Assembly (NCBI GenBank): GCA_903889245.1
Contig: CAISWQ010000096.1
Coordinates: forward strand, 1 to 60,659
From: an uncultured Lentisphaerota bacterium
GTDB taxonomy: Bacteria; Verrucomicrobiota; Kiritimatiellia; CAIQIC01
Reading direction: 5' to 3'
DNA: 60,659 nt
Made by a program: the position numbers and the translations under genes. Positions 1,159 through 57,433 of this stretch are shown piece after piece (positions within the stretch are counted from its first letter, which is position 1; every line of letters begins with the position of its first letter). The notes below the pieces were generated by a model. It saw only the letters and a list, made by a program, of their open reading frames with translations. It was not told the DNA's origin and ran no database searches.

Positions 1159-1208
1159 TTTTCCAAGCTCTTGAAAAAAACACTGGCGATTTTTTCCAAG
1201 GCTTGAAA
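1159..1208. repeat. Phased palindrome, 2 degenerate copies
   Basis: Two imperfect copies of the TTTCCAAG/CTTGGAAA palindrome (CC dinucleotides at 1163 and 1196, 33 bp apart) fill the gap between two convergent gene ends. Both have drifted in the right half-site (CTTGAAA). Confidence 0.75.
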
Positions 1209-2640: not shown

Positions 2641-3996
2641 TCAAACCAGTTTCTTCCAGAGCGTCACGTCCTCCAGCTTCGCCTTGAGCGCGTTGACGAA
2701 CTGCGCGGCCAACGCGCCATCAATGACCTGGTGATCGCTGGAGAGGGTGATCTTCATCATCTGCCGGACGACGATCTGGTCGTTCTTCACCACCGCCTGC
2801 TTGGTGGTGCTGGAGACCGCGAGGATCGCGGCCTCGCCGGGGTTGATGATCGCGGTGAAGTTCTCGACATTCAACATGCCCATGTTCGAGATGGTGAACG
2901 TGCTGCCGCTCATCTCGTCGGGCAGCAGCTTGCCGTTACGCGCCTTCTCGAACAGCGCCGCCGAGGTGTCGTGCAGTTCCTGCAACGTCAAGTCATCGGC
3001 GTCGCGGACCACCGGCACGACGAGCCCGCTTTCCAGCGAGACGGCGAGGCCGAGGTTGACCTTGCTATGCCACCAGATGCTCTTGCCATCGGTCGAGCTG
3101 TTGACCGCCGGGAATTCCTTCAGGCAGAGCGTCACCGCCATCGCGATGAAGTCGGTGACGGAGTATGGCAGATTTTTCGCCTTCAACGTCGCGCGGTAGG
3201 CGACAAGGTCGGTCATGTCCACCGAGACCGTGACGAAGAAGTGCGGCGTGCTGCTGAAGCTTTGCGTGAGCCGCTGCGCGATCACCTGCCGCATCTTGCT
3301 CATCGCCTTCGGCTTTTCAGCGACGGCACGCTTGATGTCATCGACCGTGATCTTACCGGCCTCGCCGGTGCCACGGATCGTGAGGAGATCAAGTTTCTCC
3401 GCCGCCGCCATTTCCTTGGCAGTCGGCGTGATCTTGAGCTGCGCGTAGCCCTTGGACTCGAGGTAGGCGAGCACATCCTTCTCGACGATGCGGCCGCCCG
3501 GGCCGGTACCGCGGATCGGCGCGGGGTTGATCACACTGCGCTCCGCCAGCGCCTTCGCGCGCGGGCTGATGCGCAGACGGCGGGAAGACTGGAGTGCTGG
3601 AGTACTGGAGTGTTGGAGTACTGGAGCAGAAACCGGCGCAGCCTGCGACGCGCTGACCGCTGGCTTCTGACTTCTGACCTCTGTCTTCTGACCGCTGACC
3701 GCTGGGGCGGCCGCGGGCTTGGGCGTGGCCGCAGGCGGCGTGGCGGGAATCGCCTCGCCCGGCTGGCCCACCCACGCGACGACGGCCTGCACCGGTACGG
3801 TGCCGCCTTCCGGCGTGAGAATTTTCAGCAGCGTCCCCTCGAAGAAACTCTCGACCTCCATGTTGGCTTTGTCGGTCTCGATCTCGAAGAGGATGTCGCC
3901 CTTGGCGACGGCGTCGCCTTCCTTTTTGAGCCACTTCACGATGGTGCATTCCTCGGTGAACTGGCCCGGTTTCGGCATGGCTATCGGTGATGGCAT
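2641..3996 (-). CDS. pdhC: Dihydrolipoamide acetyltransferase (E2 of pyruvate dehydrogenase)
   Basis: E2 core of the PDH complex, carrying acetyl groups on lipoyl-lysine to CoA. Residues 1-80 are a lipoyl domain with Lys43 in ETDKANME. A first peripheral-subunit-binding-like segment lies at about 142-180 (RISPRAKAL...GTGPGGRI) and a second at about 189-226 (KITPTAKEM...GTGEAGKI). The C-terminal catalytic domain ends with His422-x3-Asp426-Gly (DHQVIDG). The linker between lipoyl and binding domains (about 98-140) is built partly from minisatellite DNA (GQKTEVRSQK; VLQHSSTPALQSSRR), a tolerant place for insertions because E2 linkers need only be flexible. The 451-aa protein lies between fused E1 (120-bp gap) and E3 (12-bp gap). 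Confidence 0.96.
   Translation of the reverse strand: MPSPIAMPKPGQFTEECTIVKWLKKEGDAVAKGDILFEIETDKANMEVESFFEGTLLKILTPEGGTVPVQAVVAWVGQPGEAIPATPPAATPKPAAAPAVSGQKTEVRSQKPAVSASQAAPVSAPVLQHSSTPALQSSRRLRISPRAKALAERSVINPAPIRGTGPGGRIVEKDVLAYLESKGYAQLKITPTAKEMAAAEKLDLLTIRGTGEAGKITVDDIKRAVAEKPKAMSKMRQVIAQRLTQSFSSTPHFFVTVSVDMTDLVAYRATLKAKNLPYSVTDFIAMAVTLCLKEFPAVNSSTDGKSIWWHSKVNLGLAVSLESGLVVPVVRDADDLTLQELHDTSAALFEKARNGKLLPDEMSGSTFTISNMGMLNVENFTAIINPGEAAILAVSSTTKQAVVKNDQIVVRQMMKITLSSDHQVIDGALAAQFVNALKAKLEDVTLWKKLV
3589..3704. repeat. Two minisatellites inside the E2 linker
   Basis: One block (3589-3628) iterates a CTGGAGTACTGGAGTG-like unit. A second (3652-3704) iterates TGACCTCTGACTTC-like units. Both are in frame and encode the flexible linker. 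Related TGACCACTGAC units occur between genes at 7600, 11375 and 27315. Confidence 0.8.
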
Positions 3997-4016
3997 GGGA
4001 AAAATCCTTTCAGAAC

Positions 4017-4115
4017 ATGGTTAATGGTGGATGGCTGATGGTGGATGCTCTGAACAACGCTGGATGTTTTCTTTGCATTTTCCATCAACCATTTTCCATT
4101 AACCATCAACCATTT
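4017..4115. repeat. Low-complexity spacer between E1 and E2 genes
   Basis: Contains GGTTAATGGTGGATGGCTGATGGTGGATG-like iterations followed by an inverted set (CCATCAACCATT, CCATTAACCATC), so the two halves could pair as a long imperfect hairpin within the PDH transcript. It lies between the E1 stop (4117) and the E2 start (3996). Confidence 0.75.
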
Positions 4116-4116
4116 C

Positions 4117-7480: not shown

Positions 7481-7563
7481 GTTTCCAGGGCCTGGAAGTT
7501 TTCATGCGGATTTTTTCCAGGGCCTGGAAAAACAGGCGCGGTTTTTTCCAAGGCTTGGAAAAC
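7481..7563. repeat. Phased palindrome array, 3 copies
   Basis: Three copies with CC dinucleotides at 7485, 7517 and 7548 (32 and 31 bp apart). The first two carry CCAGGGCCTGG cores and the third CCAAGGCTTGG, so symmetry is kept while sequence drifts. It lies in a divergent gap. Confidence 0.9.
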
Positions 7564-9626: not shown

Positions 9627-9668
9627 CCGCCGGCGGCACCCAGCCCGGCCCCAGCACCTTGCGCGCTA

Positions 9669-9713
9669 TCCAAACCTTGGAAAAAATGCGCGGTATTTTC
9701 CAAGGTTTGGAAA
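9669..9713. repeat. Phased palindrome, 2 copies abutting the rhaB promoter
   Basis: Copies with CC at 9670 and 9700 (30 bp). The second ends 1-2 bp before the -35 element of rhaB, placing its centre near -44 from the expected transcription start. Confidence 0.88.
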
Positions 9714-11252: not shown

Positions 11253-11255
11253 AGA

Positions 11256-11400
11256 ATGGTAGATGGCAGATGTGAGATGGCAGATGGCGGAAAACATCGA
11301 ACGTCGAACATTCAACATCGAGTGCCGAAGCAGGAAACAAAGTGTGGCGTGATGGCCAGTTGCCTTGCAACTGACCGCTGACAACTGACAACCAACAAGC
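11256..11400. repeat. Mixed minisatellites between rhaB and PHP gene
   Basis: Successive low-complexity blocks: GATGGCAGATG iterations, ACATCGAACGTCGAACATTC iterations (inverse of the lpdA insert), then TGACCGCTGACAACTGAC iterations. No gene or promoter is evident. Confidence 0.8.
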
Positions 11401-11402
11401 CC

Positions 11403-13558: not shown

Positions 13559-13640
13559 TTTCCAAGGCGTGGAAAGACTCATCGTCACTTTTTCCAAGCC
13601 TTGGAAAAAATCGTGATTCCGGTTTCCAATGTTTGGAAAA
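13559..13640. repeat. Phased palindrome array, 3 copies
   Basis: Copies with CC at 13562, 13594 and 13626, both intervals 32 bp. Cores are CCAAGGCGTGG, CCAAGCCTTGG and CCAATGTTTGG. Lies just downstream of the GIY-YIG gene. Confidence 0.9.
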
Positions 13641-17375: not shown

Positions 17376-17569
17376 TTTCCAAGTGTTGGAAACCGCAGGT
17401 GGTGGCTTTTCCGGGCCTTGGATGGCGCAAAACGCGCCAGAAGCAATTTCGCCGTCATTTTTTCCGAGGCTTGGAAAACAGCTCGCCGGTTTTTCCAAGG
17501 CTTGGAAAAACGGATGGGGAATTTTCCAAGGCTTGGAAAAAAGCGGCGGAAAATTCCCAAGGCTTGGAA
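17376..17569. repeat. Phased palindrome array, 6 copies, largest in the window
   Basis: CC dinucleotides at 17379, 17411, 17464, 17495, 17526 and 17557: intervals 32, 53, 31, 31, 31. The 53-bp gap equals about five helical turns, as if one position were skipped but phase kept. Spacers between copies are unrelated to each other. It occupies most of the 332-bp divergent gap (17365-17696) between the acyl-CoA synthetase and arsR; the rest is the arsR promoter and about 90 bp with no feature seen. Confidence 0.93.
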
Positions 17570-22755: not shown

Positions 22756-22807
22756 TTTTCCAAACATTGGAAAACCCAAAGCGTGATTTTTCCAAGCCTT
22801 GGAAAAA
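22756..22807. repeat. Phased palindrome, 2 copies
   Basis: CC at 22760 and 22792, 32 bp apart, between the ends of the arsenic operon and ppdK. Confidence 0.9.
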
Positions 22808-25752: not shown

Positions 25753-25804
25753 GTTTTCCAAGCCTCGGGAAAAACCTGCGGAAACCTTTCCAAACCCTGG
25801 AAAA
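25753..25804. repeat. Phased palindrome, 2 copies upstream of leuC
   Basis: CC at 25758 and 25790, 32 bp apart, in the divergent ppdK-leuC gap. Their centres lie at about -62 and -94 from the expected leuC start. Confidence 0.88.
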
Positions 25805-28970: not shown

Positions 28971-29021
28971 TTTTCCAAGCCTTGGGAAAACCGGGGGCGG
29001 GCGTTTCCAATCCCTGGAAAA
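28971..29021. repeat. Phased palindrome, 2 copies
   Basis: CC at 28975 and 29007, 32 bp apart, between convergent gene ends and covering the whole gap. Confidence 0.88.
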
Positions 29022-37967: not shown

Positions 37968-38018
37968 TTTTCCGAGCCTTGGAAAATTCTGCGCCAGAAT
38001 TTCCAAGCCTTGGAAAAT
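37968..38018. repeat. Phased palindrome, 2 copies
   Basis: CC at 37972 and 38003, 31 bp apart, between convergent MgtE-like and GH2 genes. The last copy overlaps the first base of the GH2 stop codon. Confidence 0.9.
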
Positions 38019-43498: not shown

Positions 43499-44557
43499 TC
43501 AGCTCCTTGCCTCCATGGCGCGGCAGGTTTCCGTGATGCGGGCGACGAACTGGTCGAGCGTGCGGTCGCGCAGGACGCTGGCGAGTCCGGCCTTGGCGAG
43601 CGCCTCGGCCTCGGTGGGATTCGCGATCAACCGCTCCACTGCCGCGCGCATCGCGTTCGCGTCGCCGCACGGCACGAGCAACGCCGTGCCCGGCTCCAGC
43701 GAATCGAGGATGCCTTCCGAGGCGGAGACCACCACCGGCCGCCCGCACGCCTGCGCCTCGAACAACGAGGTCACCCCCGCCGGCCAGTCCACGTTCATCA
43801 GCGGCACCACGACCACCGCCGCATTCCGATAAAGCTCGCGCAGCTCGACGCTGCTCAAGCCTTTCCGCAGCGTCACGTTCGCCGGGATTTTCCGGTCGGC
43901 GGTCTGGTCGGCGCGTTTCGACCACGGGCTGGAGGCGCAGACGCTGACGGGAATATCGGTTTTTTCCAAGGCTTGGAAAAGGGTGGGGTAGTCGCGCAGT
44001 TCGCGGCCGACCGCCACCACGCCGCGGCCCGGCTGGAACGCGCCGCCGGGCGTGAAGAATTTTTCGTCCACCTGGAAATGAATCCGCCGCACCTTCTCCG
44101 GCGGCGCACGGAAAAAGCCCGCCGCAAATTTTTCCTGCTGCTGGCTATAGCAGAGCATCGCCATGCGTTGGCGGAACAGGCCGAGCGCGCGGATGGCGCG
44201 GCGCTTCGGCGGCGTGGTGATGCGGTGGCCGATGAAGGCAAAGGTCGCGCCGCGCCGGAAGCGCAACAGCATCGCGAGCGGGATCATCGTGTTCTCTGCC
44301 GTGGCAAAATAGAAAACCCCGCCGCGGCGGAACGCGAGCCACGCGAGCGCGACGGCCTTGCCGGCGATCTTCGCCAGCAGCCGCGTGAAGGCCGAGCCGC
44401 GCGGCACATCGGAGAACGAGAGCAGGTCGGCGCCGAACGCCTTCGCCAGCTCGACGAAATCCTGCCGCGGCGACTCGGTCTCGCCCTTGAGCCGGTTCAT
44501 CACGGTCTCGACATCGGCCGTCACCACGACAAAACGTTTTCCCTTCCCTGTGCTCAT
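43499..44557 (-). CDS. GT-B glycosyltransferase containing an in-frame palindrome copy
   Basis: 352 aa. The C-terminal GT4-like half has GVVAVGRELRDYPTLFQAL, then RKGLSSVELRELYRNAAVVVVPLM, GVTSLFEAQACGRPVVVSASEGI and ALLVPCGDANAMRAAVERLI, with Glu in FEAQACG as the usual acceptor-site residue. Residues ~193-199 (FQALEK) are encoded by one copy of the dispersed palindrome (43961-43981), at a place where relatives normally have a helix, so the repeat sits in frame without breaking the protein. Overlaps the upstream GT4 gene by 4 bp. Confidence 0.88.
   Translation of the reverse strand: MSTGKGKRFVVVTADVETVMNRLKGETESPRQDFVELAKAFGADLLSFSDVPRGSAFTRLLAKIAGKAVALAWLAFRRGGVFYFATAENTMIPLAMLLRFRRGATFAFIGHRITTPPKRRAIRALGLFRQRMAMLCYSQQQEKFAAGFFRAPPEKVRRIHFQVDEKFFTPGGAFQPGRGVVAVGRELRDYPTLFQALEKTDIPVSVCASSPWSKRADQTADRKIPANVTLRKGLSSVELRELYRNAAVVVVPLMNVDWPAGVTSLFEAQACGRPVVVSASEGILDSLEPGTALLVPCGDANAMRAAVERLIANPTEAEALAKAGLASVLRDRTLDQFVARITETCRAMEARS
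43961..43981. repeat. Single palindrome copy inside glycosyltransferase gene
   Basis: TTTTTCCAAGGCTTGGAAAA within the coding sequence, the best-conserved form of the repeat. No second copy is visible 31 bp to either side. Confidence 0.9.
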
Positions 44558-45761: not shown

Positions 45762-45780
45762 CTTTCCAAGGCTTGGAAAA
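45762..45780. repeat. Single palindrome copy in divergent gap
   Basis: ACTTTCCAAGGCTTGGAAAA-type copy between the start of the polysaccharide operon and the MATE gene. No phased partner. Confidence 0.88.
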
Positions 45781-51463: not shown

Positions 51464-51545
51464 TTTTCCAAGGCTTGGAAAATCCCGCCGCCTTTTTTTC
51501 CAAGTCCTGGAAAAATCTGCGCGAAAATTTCCAAGCCTTGGAAAA
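51464..51545. repeat. Phased palindrome array, 3 copies
   Basis: CC at 51468, 51500 and 51531 (32 and 31 bp), between arnA and the GH106 gene on the same strand. Confidence 0.92.
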
Positions 51546-51601: not shown

Positions 51602-54600
51602 ATGAAAAAAATATGGCTGGTTTTGGCGATGGGGTGGCTGGCGCTGCGTGGCGGCGCGGACGAGCTTGAACAACAGTTCGCAGCGCCACCGGACGCGGCG
51701 CGGCCGTGGGTCTATTGGTATTTCATGGATGGCAACCTGACCCGCGAGGGGTTGACCGCCGATCTCGAGGCGATGAAGGCCGCGGGTATCGGCGGCGCGA
51801 TTTTTCTGGAGGTGAACATCGGCATCCCGCGCGGGCCGGTGGAGTTCATGAGCGGGCCGTGGCGCGCGCTGTTCGTCCACGCGGTGCGCGAGGCCGAGCG
51901 GCTCGGCATCCAGATTGCGCTCGGCACCGGGCCGGGCTGGTGTGGCACCGGCGGGCCATGGGTCAAGCCGGAGCAGTCCATGCAGCACCTCGTCGCGAGC
52001 GCGACGAACGTCGCCGGGCCCGCGCGCTTCGACGCCGTCCTGCCGCGGCCCGCGCCGCGTACGCCGTACTTCGGCGAGAAAACGCTCACGCCGGAACTGC
52101 ACAAGCAGTGGGCGGAATTTTATCGTGACGAGGCTGTGCTTGCCTTCCCCACACCGCCGGGCGGCGCGCGGCTGGCCGACGCCGACGAAAAGGCGCTCTA
52201 CTTCCGCGAACCGTACTCCTCGAAGAAAGACGTGAAGCCGTTCCTGCCCGCGCCCGCGGAGTTCCCGGCGCTGCCCGTGGCGGAGTGCATCGCGACAAAT
52301 ACGCTGCTCGACCTGACCGCGCGGCGCGGCAGCGACGGCCGGCTGACGTGGGACGTGCCGCCGGGCCAGTGGACGATCCTGCGCTTCGCGCGCACGACCA
52401 CCGGGCAGACGACGCGGCCCGCGCCGCAGCCGGGGCTTGGCCTGGAGTGCGATAAGTTCGACCGCGCCGCGCTCGACGCGCACTACGCCGCGTTTGTCGG
52501 CCAGTTGCTCAAGGAGGCGGGACCACGCCGCAGACCCGACGCCGGGCTGACGATGCTGCACTTCGATAGCTGGGAGATGAGCTCGCAGAACTGGTCGGCA
52601 CATTTCCGCGCCGAGTTCCGGCAGCGGCGCGGTTACGACCCGCTGCCCTTCCTGCCCGCGCTGCTTGGCCGCGTCGTGCAAAGCCTGGAAATTTCCGAGC
52701 GCTTCCTCTGGGACCTGCGGCAGGTGGCGCAGGAACTGGTCATCACCAACCACGCGGTGCGCCTGCGGGAGCTCGGCCGCCAGAGCGGGTTGCCGCTCTC
52801 CATCGAGCCCTATGACCTCAACCCGGCGGCCGACCTCGAACTCGGCGTCGTCGCCGATGTGCCGATGTGCGAGTTCTGGTCCAAGGGCCACGGCTTTGCG
52901 ACGGAGTACAGTTGCCTGGAAGCCACGTCCATCGCGCACACGCTCGGCCGCAGCATCGTCGGCGCGGAGGCGTTCACCGCCGCGCCGGGCGAGGACTGGC
53001 TGCTCCATCCCGGCGCGCTGAAGGAGCAGGGCGACTGGGCGCTCTGCTGCGGCATCAATCGCTTCGCCTTCCACCGTTACCAGCACCAGCCGTGGCTCGA
53101 CCGCTGGCCGGGCATGACCATGGGCCCCTACGGCGTCCACTGGGAGCGCACGCAGACGTGGTGGGACATGGCGCACGCCTATCACACCTACCTCGCGCGT
53201 TGCCAGGCGCTGCTGCGCCGCGGCGCGCCGATCGGCGACATCCTCTACCTCGCCGGCGAGGGCGCGCCGCACGTCTTCCGCCCGCCCGCCTCCGCGCTGC
53301 TGCCCGGACTGCCCGACCGGCGCGGCTACAATTTCGACGGCTGCGCGCCCTCCACATTGCTGCAGGCGAAGGTGGAGCACGACCGCATCGTGCTGCCCGG
53401 CGCGAGCTATCGTGTGCTCGTGCTGCCGCGCCTGGCCACGATGACGCCCGCGCTGCTCGGCAAGATCAAGGAACTGGTTGCCGCCGGCGCAACGGTCGTC
53501 GGCGCGCCGCCGCAGAAATCGCCGGGCCTGCAAAACTTCCCGCAATGCGATGCCGAGGTGCAAAAACTCGCTGCCGAAATCTGGAGCGACGCCAACCGCG
53601 AACGCGTCATCCGCGATGCGTGGCCGCCGCCCGCGCCTGCCGCCGCACTGGCCAGTGAACTACCCAGGGCGCGCTGGCTCTGGCACGAGCCGACGCTGTC
53701 CGCGCCGGTCGGCACGCGCTGCTTCCGCCGCGAGGTCGTACTGCCCGCCGGCCGCCGGGTGACCGCCGCGACGGTGCAGATGACCGCCGACAATTCCTTC
53801 GAGCTGTTCATCAACGGCGCGCCCGCCGGTGGTGGACACAGCTTCCATCACGTGGAGGAACTGGACGTGGCCGCGCTGCGCAAGCCGGGCACGAATGTGC
53901 TGGCCGCGACGGTCCATAACGGCGGCGACGCGCCCAATCCCGCCGGCCTGCTCGGCGTACTCGTGGTGCAGTTCGAGGGTGGTGCTGACCTCGTCGTGCC
54001 GACCGACAGGAGCTGGGGCAGTGCGGAGGAAATGTGCGGCCCGTGGCGTGCGGCGCACGAACTGGGGCCGATGCCGATGCCGCCGTGGAAAATCACCGCA
54101 CCCAAACCGGTTGAGAAACCGGTGGACCTTTATCCCGACTACGCGACCACCGCCGCGCTGCTCGCGCGGCTCGGCATTGCACCGGACTTCGAGTCCACCG
54201 GCGACGTGCGCTTTATCCACCGGCGCGAAGGCGCGACGGACATCTATTTCGTCGGCAACCGCACCGCGCAGCCGCTCGCGGCCGAGTGCCGCTTCCGCGT
54301 CGCCGGCCGGCAGCCGGAACTGTGGGATCCGCTGACCGGCGCGCGGCGCGCGCTCCCGAACTTCGGCGCGCGCGACGGCCGCACCAGCGTGCCGCTGGAG
54401 TTCGCGCCGTACCAGAGCTTCTTCGTCATCTTCCGCCAGCCCGCCGCGCCGGGCACGGCGACCACGCAGAATTTTCCGGCGCTCAAACCCGTGCAGGAAC
54501 TGGCCGGGCCGTGGCAGGCGCGCTTCGTTTCCAAGGTTGGGAAACCGTTCGATAAAACTTTCCAAGGCTTGGAAGACTGGGCACGCAGCCCCGACGCCGA

Positions 54601-55042
54601 ACTCAAATACTTCAGCGGGACGGCGACCTACCGCAAGGCCTTTGGCCTGGCACCAGAGATCAGAAGTCAGAAGTCAGCGGTCAGAAATCAGAATGCAGCG
54701 GTCGGCGGAAGTACGGCTGACCTCCGACCTCTGACCTCTGATCTCTGGCTTGATCTGGGCTCGGTACAGGTGATGGCGCAGGTAAAGTTAAATGGCCGGG
54801 ACTTGGGTGTGGTGTGGTGCGCGCCGTGGCGCGTGGAGCTTCCGGCGGGGCTGCTGCGCGCGGAGGGCAACGAGCTGGAGATCACCGTGGCGAATCTCTG
54901 GATCAACCGGCTGATCGGCGATGCCAGCCTGCCGCCGGAGCAGCGCCAGGCGTGGACCACGCGCAATCCGTACAAGAAAACTGCGCCGCTCCAGCCCTCC
55001 GGCCTCCTCGGCCCCGTCCGCCTGCTCGCGGTCCAGCCGTGA
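51602..55042 (+). CDS. Secreted GH106-type alpha-L-rhamnosidase
   Basis: 1146 aa; signal peptide MKKIWLVLAMGWLALRGGA after GGAAGAG. The N-terminal barrel is typical of GH106: RPWVYWYFMDGNLTREGLTADLEAMKAAGIGGAIFLEV, GTGPGWCGTGGPWVKPEQSMQHL, HFDSWEMSSQNWS and GHGFATEYSCLEATSIAH; a central beta region follows and a C-terminal galactose-binding-like domain closes with LDLGSVQVMAQVKLNGRDLGVVWCAPWRVEL. It releases L-rhamnose, consistent with rhaB in the window. Two unusual insertions near the C-terminus derive from repeats: phased palindromes at residues ~976-991 (VSKVGKP, FQGLED) and a minisatellite at ~1018-1050 (EIRSQKSAVRNQ). Confidence 0.92.
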   Translation: MKKIWLVLAMGWLALRGGADELEQQFAAPPDAARPWVYWYFMDGNLTREGLTADLEAMKAAGIGGAIFLEVNIGIPRGPVEFMSGPWRALFVHAVREAERLGIQIALGTGPGWCGTGGPWVKPEQSMQHLVASATNVAGPARFDAVLPRPAPRTPYFGEKTLTPELHKQWAEFYRDEAVLAFPTPPGGARLADADEKALYFREPYSSKKDVKPFLPAPAEFPALPVAECIATNTLLDLTARRGSDGRLTWDVPPGQWTILRFARTTTGQTTRPAPQPGLGLECDKFDRAALDAHYAAFVGQLLKEAGPRRRPDAGLTMLHFDSWEMSSQNWSAHFRAEFRQRRGYDPLPFLPALLGRVVQSLEISERFLWDLRQVAQELVITNHAVRLRELGRQSGLPLSIEPYDLNPAADLELGVVADVPMCEFWSKGHGFATEYSCLEATSIAHTLGRSIVGAEAFTAAPGEDWLLHPGALKEQGDWALCCGINRFAFHRYQHQPWLDRWPGMTMGPYGVHWERTQTWWDMAHAYHTYLARCQALLRRGAPIGDILYLAGEGAPHVFRPPASALLPGLPDRRGYNFDGCAPSTLLQAKVEHDRIVLPGASYRVLVLPRLATMTPALLGKIKELVAAGATVVGAPPQKSPGLQNFPQCDAEVQKLAAEIWSDANRERVIRDAWPPPAPAAALASELPRARWLWHEPTLSAPVGTRCFRREVVLPAGRRVTAATVQMTADNSFELFINGAPAGGGHSFHHVEELDVAALRKPGTNVLAATVHNGGDAPNPAGLLGVLVVQFEGGADLVVPTDRSWGSAEEMCGPWRAAHELGPMPMPPWKITAPKPVEKPVDLYPDYATTAALLARLGIAPDFESTGDVRFIHRREGATDIYFVGNRTAQPLAAECRFRVAGRQPELWDPLTGARRALPNFGARDGRTSVPLEFAPYQSFFVIFRQPAAPGTATTQNFPALKPVQELAGPWQARFVSKVGKPFDKTFQGLEDWARSPDAELKYFSGTATYRKAFGLAPEIRSQKSAVRNQNAAVGGSTADLRPLTSDLWLDLGSVQVMAQVKLNGRDLGVVWCAPWRVELPAGLLRAEGNELEITVANLWINRLIGDASLPPEQRQAWTTRNPYKKTAPLQPSGLLGPVRLLAVQP
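54527..54574. repeat. Phased palindrome, 2 copies inside the rhamnosidase gene
   Basis: CC at 54531 and 54562, 31 bp apart. Because 31 is not a multiple of three the two copies are read in different frames (VSKVGKP versus FQGLED), yet the phase of intergenic arrays is kept. Confidence 0.9.
54655..54750. repeat. AGATCAGAAGTCAG minisatellite inside the rhamnosidase gene
   Basis: Iterations of CAGAAGTCAGAAGTC and then the inverse CTGACCTCTGATCTC, so the two halves could form a hairpin. Read in frame, it lengthens a linker before the last beta domain. The TGACCTCTGAC unit is the same as in the E2 linker. Confidence 0.82.
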
Positions 55043-57297: not shown

Positions 57298-57382
57298 AAC
57301 ACTGCTCCTGTCTGACTGCTAAAGCGCGGGGACTATACGGAAGCACCCCCACCCCGACAAGCGAAAAGCACGGCCCGGCGCG

Positions 57383-57433
57383 GTTTTCCAAGGTTGGGAA
57401 AAACTACCCCCGGACTTCTCCAATCCTTGGAGG
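57383..57433. repeat. Phased palindrome, 2 copies
   Basis: CC at 57388 and 57420, 32 bp apart, between two same-strand genes; the second copy ends 4 bp before the stop of the downstream gene. Confidence 0.88.

Follow-up and report, generated by a model that had tools for sequence, protein, structure and literature searches.

Why would a gene keep two palindromes 31 base pairs (bp) apart when the two are translated in different reading frames? The question is raised by a stretch of 60,659 nucleotides (hereafter the window; contig CAISWQ010000096.1 of assembly GCA_903889245.1, from an uncultured Lentisphaerota bacterium of the class Kiritimatiellia), in which an open reading frame on the forward strand at 51602..55042 encodes a GH106 alpha-L-rhamnosidase (PF17132, E=5.9e-177). 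A first-pass annotation of this DNA had reported two palindromes 31 bp apart inside the rhamnosidase gene, and both are present where it placed them (palindromic sites and arrays are given here without strand). Site 1 (TTCCAAGGTTGGGAA, 54529..54543) is imperfect, agrees with the consensus at 12 of 14 positions and codes S-K-V-G; site 2 (TTCCAAGGCTTGGAA, 54560..54574) is perfect and codes F-Q-G-L-E. The 31 bp are counted start to start. With their first bases at offsets 2927 and 2958, site 1 starts on the third position of a codon and site 2 on the first, so that the two are indeed translated in different frames (VSKVGKP and FQGLED). We consider it probable that the pair belongs to a chromosome-wide set of sites for a putative dimeric, sequence-specific DNA-binding protein of Kiritimatiellia, phased to the same face of the helix and with a suggested architectural role.

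The pair is one of very many. On both strands of the window there are 62 matches to TTCCAAGNNTTGGAA with at most two mismatches, compared to 0.58 expected and a maximum of three in 100 shuffles, and these form about 15 arrays, nearly all intergenic, which had been overlooked. The 5.26-Mb home genome (G000) holds about 2040 sites at no more than one mismatch, against 4-7 for a reversed-pattern control, and about 1000 arrays; a single palindrome is thus strongly over-represented across genes and gaps alike, as is the case for the cyanobacterial HIP1 element. The symmetric consensus, TTTTCCAAGSCTTGGAAAA, is sharp. The arrays lie mostly between genes and contain 2-5 copies 31 or 32 bp apart, or three helical turns, a genome-wide rule that had likewise gone unremarked. 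In 460 kb sampled from the home genome and searched at a threshold of 11/14, with genes called by a home-made hexamer caller for which small errors are to be expected, we counted 86 arrays with 245 sites; 82 arrays had at least two sites, and 79 lay between genes and five inside them. Between sites the sequence is nearly devoid of information and is unrelated from array to array, and for this reason the arrays do not represent copies of a single longer unit; the same spacer profile led us to reject tandem or mobile copying with shared spacers. Among open-licence papers we found none on these repeats in Kiritimatiellia.

Spacing in the home genome follows the helix. In the 460-kb sample 31 bp (79 pairs) and 32 bp (46) are followed by 62/63, 93/94 and 125/126 bp, and distances off this 31.4-bp grid (53, 84, 85, 114, 116 and others) lie within 1.5 bp of whole turns. 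The same pattern appears in G116, a genome of the same class and a different family assembled as one 3.88-Mb contig, which we sampled at 45 places covering 895 kb. This sample contains 267 sites (one in the reversed control), of which 86 are intergenic and 181 (68%) fall in genes, where each of the three frames is used (85/49/47). Every one of the 50 pair distances of 16-130 bp (22, 30-32, 42, 52-53, 61-63, 73-74, 82-85, 104-106 and 114-116 bp) corresponds to a whole number of turns of the helix (R=0.91 at 10.45-10.5 bp, p~1e-18), and nearest neighbors alone give p~1e-15 for the helical period (n=42). Neighboring pairs within coding DNA (n=19) are in phase with the helix (10.5-bp repeat; R=0.89, p=3e-7) and not with the codon period (R=0.38, p=0.065). 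The earlier suggestion that spacing is a DNA-level property is therefore borne out, both by the 31/32-bp rule genome-wide and by these coding pairs, and the phasing in G116 is the strongest support for DNA geometry, rather than protein, setting the spacing. In G116 the helical phase may carry over to sites separated by several hundred bp (R=0.75, p 2e-4 for 260-400 bp; R=0.5, p 5e-3 for 400-600 bp), although these are small bins at the best period with uncorrected p values; if true, this would suggest DNA looping. Positions beside the site center are degenerate in G116 and so are not a conserved part of the site, which makes a fixed CCWWGG methylation core unlikely.

How did such sites come to lie inside genes? 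The first-pass annotation expected the repeat segment of the rhamnosidase gene to be an insertion, and homologue alignments contradict this. G001 and G002 are congeners of the home genome; rhamnosidase orthologues were compared from G002 (76-78% identity) and G003 (75-77%). These two and nearly all paralogues align without gaps across VSKVGKPFDKTFQGLEDW; a few paralogues have one extra residue and one has nine. The G003 protein has the same or similar residues, VPKAGKPFDRTFQSLDDW, yet its gene has no palindromes, and G002 (VPKVGKPFARIFQALEDW) has a pair 32 bp apart. Site 1 is displaced by one base in G002 (TTCCCAAGGTTGGAA); site 2 is retained there (TTCCAAGCCTTGGAA) and missing in G003 (TTCCAAAGCCTGGAC). 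Since the alignment is gapless and G003 has the residues without the palindromes, the residues are older than the palindromes, which arose on them by point substitution, and we rejected an origin by insertion at this locus. Two further in-gene loci agree: a single site in a glycosyltransferase gene (43964..43978), whose orthologues differ by point changes that lead, step by step and without gaps, from G003 by way of G002 to the perfect site of the home genome, and a pair of sites in a ThiD gene, which aligns without gaps to homologues of solved structure. The in-frame insertion that characterizes palindromic elements of the Rickettsia type was thus not found in either the GH106 or the ThiD gene.

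With the residues this old, the rhamnosidase pair taken alone could be a chance likeness of conserved codons to the motif without selection on the DNA, since PK-x-G and F-x-x-L-x-D/E are old in GH106 and occur in homologues lacking palindromes. Such homologues had been proposed as the mark of a chance match, and they do exist, but the conclusion does not follow from them, because G002 keeps the pair, FQ[AG]LE peptides are all palindrome-coded with rare codons, and the family of sites has thousands of members. In the 460-kb sample four of four FQ[AG]LE peptides are spelled in this way, with P about 3e-3 for the FQGLE spelling found at site 2, and the codons used at the two sites are rare in the genome (GTT 0.05, TTG 0.10, CAA 0.17). 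A perfect and a near-perfect site also stand here at the genome-wide spacing, and identity between G000 and G002 is 87% and 93% in the sites and 62% in the intervening 16 bp (90% in sites against 62% in spacer; short segments, indicative only). Chance at this locus is in our estimation improbable. Nonetheless, the argument that protein selection would favor 30 or 33 bp is weak here, because the residue spacing was inherited from the protein family; the idea of spacing at the DNA level is the part that holds.

The same gene does contain a genuine in-frame insert downstream of the sites (54653-54748), an inverted repeat of (GTCAGAA)-like units (PEIRSQKSAVRNQNAAVGGSTADLRPLTSD) which is absent or far shorter in the G002 and G003 orthologues. 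Paralogues L020, L021, L030 and L034 carry different repeat-like inserts in the same loop, which is therefore a hotspot for in-frame repeat insertion. Genes of this type are also expanded, with 37 tblastn-type matches to this protein in the home genome and 38 in G042, which belongs to a different family of Kiritimatiellia.

Perfect palindromes that often follow immediately on a stop codon could also act as RNA hairpins or DNA cruciforms, for instance as terminators or mRNA stabilizers. Changes in the two arms of a site are independent, with double changes at expectation and no excess of complementary ones, and the G/C centers of adjacent sites are independent as well (70 complementary vs 73 identical). 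Hairpins are unlikely because half-sites do not covary, and a hairpin or cruciform was rejected on this ground; moreover, the T-run is on the wrong side for an intrinsic terminator and RNA hairpins would not be expected to keep exact phase across several helical turns, so that we give this explanation almost no credence. A symmetric site with independently varying half-sites is a trait of the sites of dimeric nucleoid proteins (matS/NBS-like), and the data fit each half-site being read by one subunit of a putative protein, with no pairing within or between sites.

The lack of compensatory changes also separates the sites from repetitive extragenic palindromic (REP) elements and their REP-associated tyrosine transposases (RAYTs), in which pairing of this kind is a feature. 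Mobile repeats, either REP-like or resembling miniature inverted-repeat transposable elements, would be spread by a transposase and land mostly between genes, and high copy number, intergenic preference and the gain or loss of arrays seen between species of one genus are what they would produce. Against this, spacers are unrelated, no inserted sequence is found at the in-gene sites, and neither a GTAG nor a CGTC tag was found beside the palindrome in the consensus profile. G132 has about 80 arrays but no RAYT gene (Y1_Tnp), whereas G037 has the gene and no sites; Y1 transposase genes do not track the sites, and a RAYT link was rejected. Spread as mobile repeats is accordingly very unlikely.

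If the sites are bound by protein, their placement should speak to what that protein does. If the sites were operators through which a global transcription regulator controls a very large regulon, this would account for dimer-type palindromes, for phasing and for tandem sites, all typical of cooperative repressors, and 12 of 30 divergent gaps carry arrays. However, gaps between convergent genes carry arrays no less often (12/21; co-directional gaps, 52/140), and arrays are often found right after stop codons, with 29 nearer a stop, 24 nearer a start and no pull toward starts. Moreover, about 1000 arrays, together with the 68% of G116 sites that lie in genes, do not suit promoter control. We regard such a regulon as unlikely, and an architectural role is preferred over it because the sites are so numerous, show no bias toward promoters and form arrays at even, quasi-regular intervals (~4.6 kb). 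Across 826 kb sampled from the home genome there are 164 arrays, at a mean distance of 5.0 kb (median 4.6 kb). The coefficient of variation (CV) of spacing is 0.54 for occupied gaps, compared to 0.82 (standard deviation 0.06) for a null of random, length-weighted picks among the same intergenic gaps, and none of 1000 draws was as low. Occupancy is 6-14% within 3 kb of an occupied gap, 56% at 4-5 kb and 38% overall; arrays keep clear of one another at distances under 3 kb and are most frequent 4-5 kb apart.

This even spacing in the home genome, the high copy number and the point-mutation origin in genes and gaps also resemble DNA uptake signals, in which the palindrome would be read by the machinery of natural transformation and copies would build up through biased uptake and recombination. 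ComEC (PF03772) was found in 13 of the 14 genomes tested, with and without many sites; these include eight of nine site-bearing genomes, but also all five with few or no sites, and the site-bearing genome in which it was not found is G003. Known uptake signals are neither long palindromes nor arranged in whole-turn arrays, and we judge this origin to be quite improbable.

Some results weigh against the proposed architectural role. Even spacing is not seen in G116 (CV 0.995 vs null 0.926), and was rejected as a general rule since it holds in G000 and not in G116. The exact pair pattern occurs in 40 of 346 Kiritimatiellia genomes, from more than ten families, a patchy distribution that is odd for an essential architectural protein. 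For the intergenic arrays, most orthologous gaps are too diverged to separate insertion from substitution. The distribution has to be read with the caveat that genomes without an exact pair may still have sites, as G116 has one exact pair and yet, if the sample is extrapolated, many hundreds of sites. Site flanks vary by family (AACTTCC.., GACTTCC..) and the 31/32 spacing is constant. The set is restricted to the class: 257 genomes sampled from the rest of the phylum all lack the exact pair pattern, and it was not found in a viral collection. A de novo search of 100 kb each of G037 and G048 revealed no perfect palindromes of other sequence at 31-bp spacing. In G048, which has no exact pairs, two degenerate site pairs at 32 bp occur in 100 kb (L181-L185) and are perhaps decayed remnants.

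Along the G116 contig, sites occur in 42 of 45 stretches (three have none) and show no gradient; confinement to one region, as for matS or NBS, was not found there, nor was restriction to the origin, the terminus or a macrodomain. GC skew in G116 flips sign near 1.4 Mb and 3.4 Mb (L144 of G116:C1, L186-L235), consistent with one origin and one terminus.

From these sequence patterns we infer a dimeric protein, cooperative binding on one face of the DNA and an architectural role. One putative dimer would occupy each 15-19 bp palindrome, and neighboring sites whole turns apart (two, three, four, five and more, three being commonest) would place dimers on the same face, where they could touch, stack or be bridged. 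The protein is probably nucleoid-architectural and would organize the chromosome. Sites would be gained and lost by point substitution, mainly between genes but in any frame within genes where the protein tolerates them. In the rhamnosidase gene, the old residues PK-x-G and F-Q-x-L-D may have chanced to supply near-sites at a distance of about 31 bp; a few substitutions, leaving the rare codons GTT, TTG and CAA, could then have turned the two into a phased pair. More tentatively, and with some doubt on our part, the sites may form a helically phased positional code, in which thousands of palindromes made by point mutation would seat same-face dimers in small nucleoprotein clusters that in some genera recur quasi-regularly every 4-5 kb, with exclusion below 3 kb, like anchors of a bacterial chromatin.

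The remaining arrays of the window are mostly intergenic. A three-site array with spacings of 32 and 31 bp (51466..51543) separates a formyltransferase/epimerase gene from the GH106 gene, and a site upstream of a glycosyltransferase gene (45764..45778) occupies the corresponding position in G002 and G003, which have a second site 31/32 bp beyond it. Further intergenic arrays have two sites at 1161..1208, 9668..9712, 25756..25802, 28973..29019 (directly after a stop codon) and 57386..57432 (the second weak), and between convergent genes at 22758..22804 and 37970..38015; three sites at 7483..7560 and 13560..13638; and six sites of at least 11/14 at 17377..17569, namely a four-site run at 31 bp and two outlying. 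DNA similarity to congeners stops at or beside arrays at 45778, 51435 and 57367-57386; arrays are often at synteny breakpoints, which may only reflect their position between transcription units. A second dispersed repeat family, of degenerate GGATGGTGGATGGCTGATGG-type repeats, occupies intergenic DNA at 3979-4116 and 11253-11402, recurs at these places in G002 and G003, and has similar words in the GH106 loop inserts.

To our knowledge, the chromosome biology of Kiritimatiellia has been little studied. These sites show DNA helical phase being kept within coding sequence, across reading frames, throughout a natural genome, and therefore selection on DNA geometry and on protein can be separated by statistics alone. 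If the protein is found, they would define a bacterial chromosome-organizing system whose site positions can be read from sequence.

Among known systems, HIP1 (GCGATCGC) of cyanobacteria is a much-repeated genomic palindrome of unsettled function, typical of one bacterial group with exceptional low-count members (PMC4390886). The Kiritimatiellia sites are likewise an iterated, genome-wide, group-restricted palindrome; however, HIP1 is 8 bp and linked to methyltransferases, whereas they span 15-19 bp in whole-turn arrays. REP elements (GTAG/CGTC families) with RAYTs are short, intergenic, high-copy, clustered palindromes known from bacteria that include Verrucomicrobia (PMC3733652). The present sites share these traits but lack the tag, a shared spacer, pairing covariation and the RAYT correlation, and their in-gene copies came without insertion. 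Rickettsia palindromic elements also lie inside protein-coding genes, inserted there as extra in-frame peptide segments, unlike the Kiritimatiellia sites, whose in-gene homologues align gaplessly. The uptake sequences of Haemophilus (USS) and Neisseria (DUS) are abundant and spread through point mutations, both within genes and between them, but they lack palindromic symmetry and helical phasing; copy number and mutational origin are therefore alike, while symmetry and phasing differ. The sites matS, SBS and NBS, for MatP, SlmA and Noc, are dimer-bound palindromes, with tens of sites confined to chromosome regions. Tens of regional sites differ from one array per ~5 kb with a helical-turn rule, and we know of neither such density nor such a rule in HIP1 or MatP/SlmA. 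MatP and SlmA bind as dimers to palindromic sites spread over chromosomes (PMC3116907). In its behavior the set is most like an iterated palindrome of the HIP1 type combined with dimer sites of the MatP/SlmA type (PMC4390886, PMC3116907).
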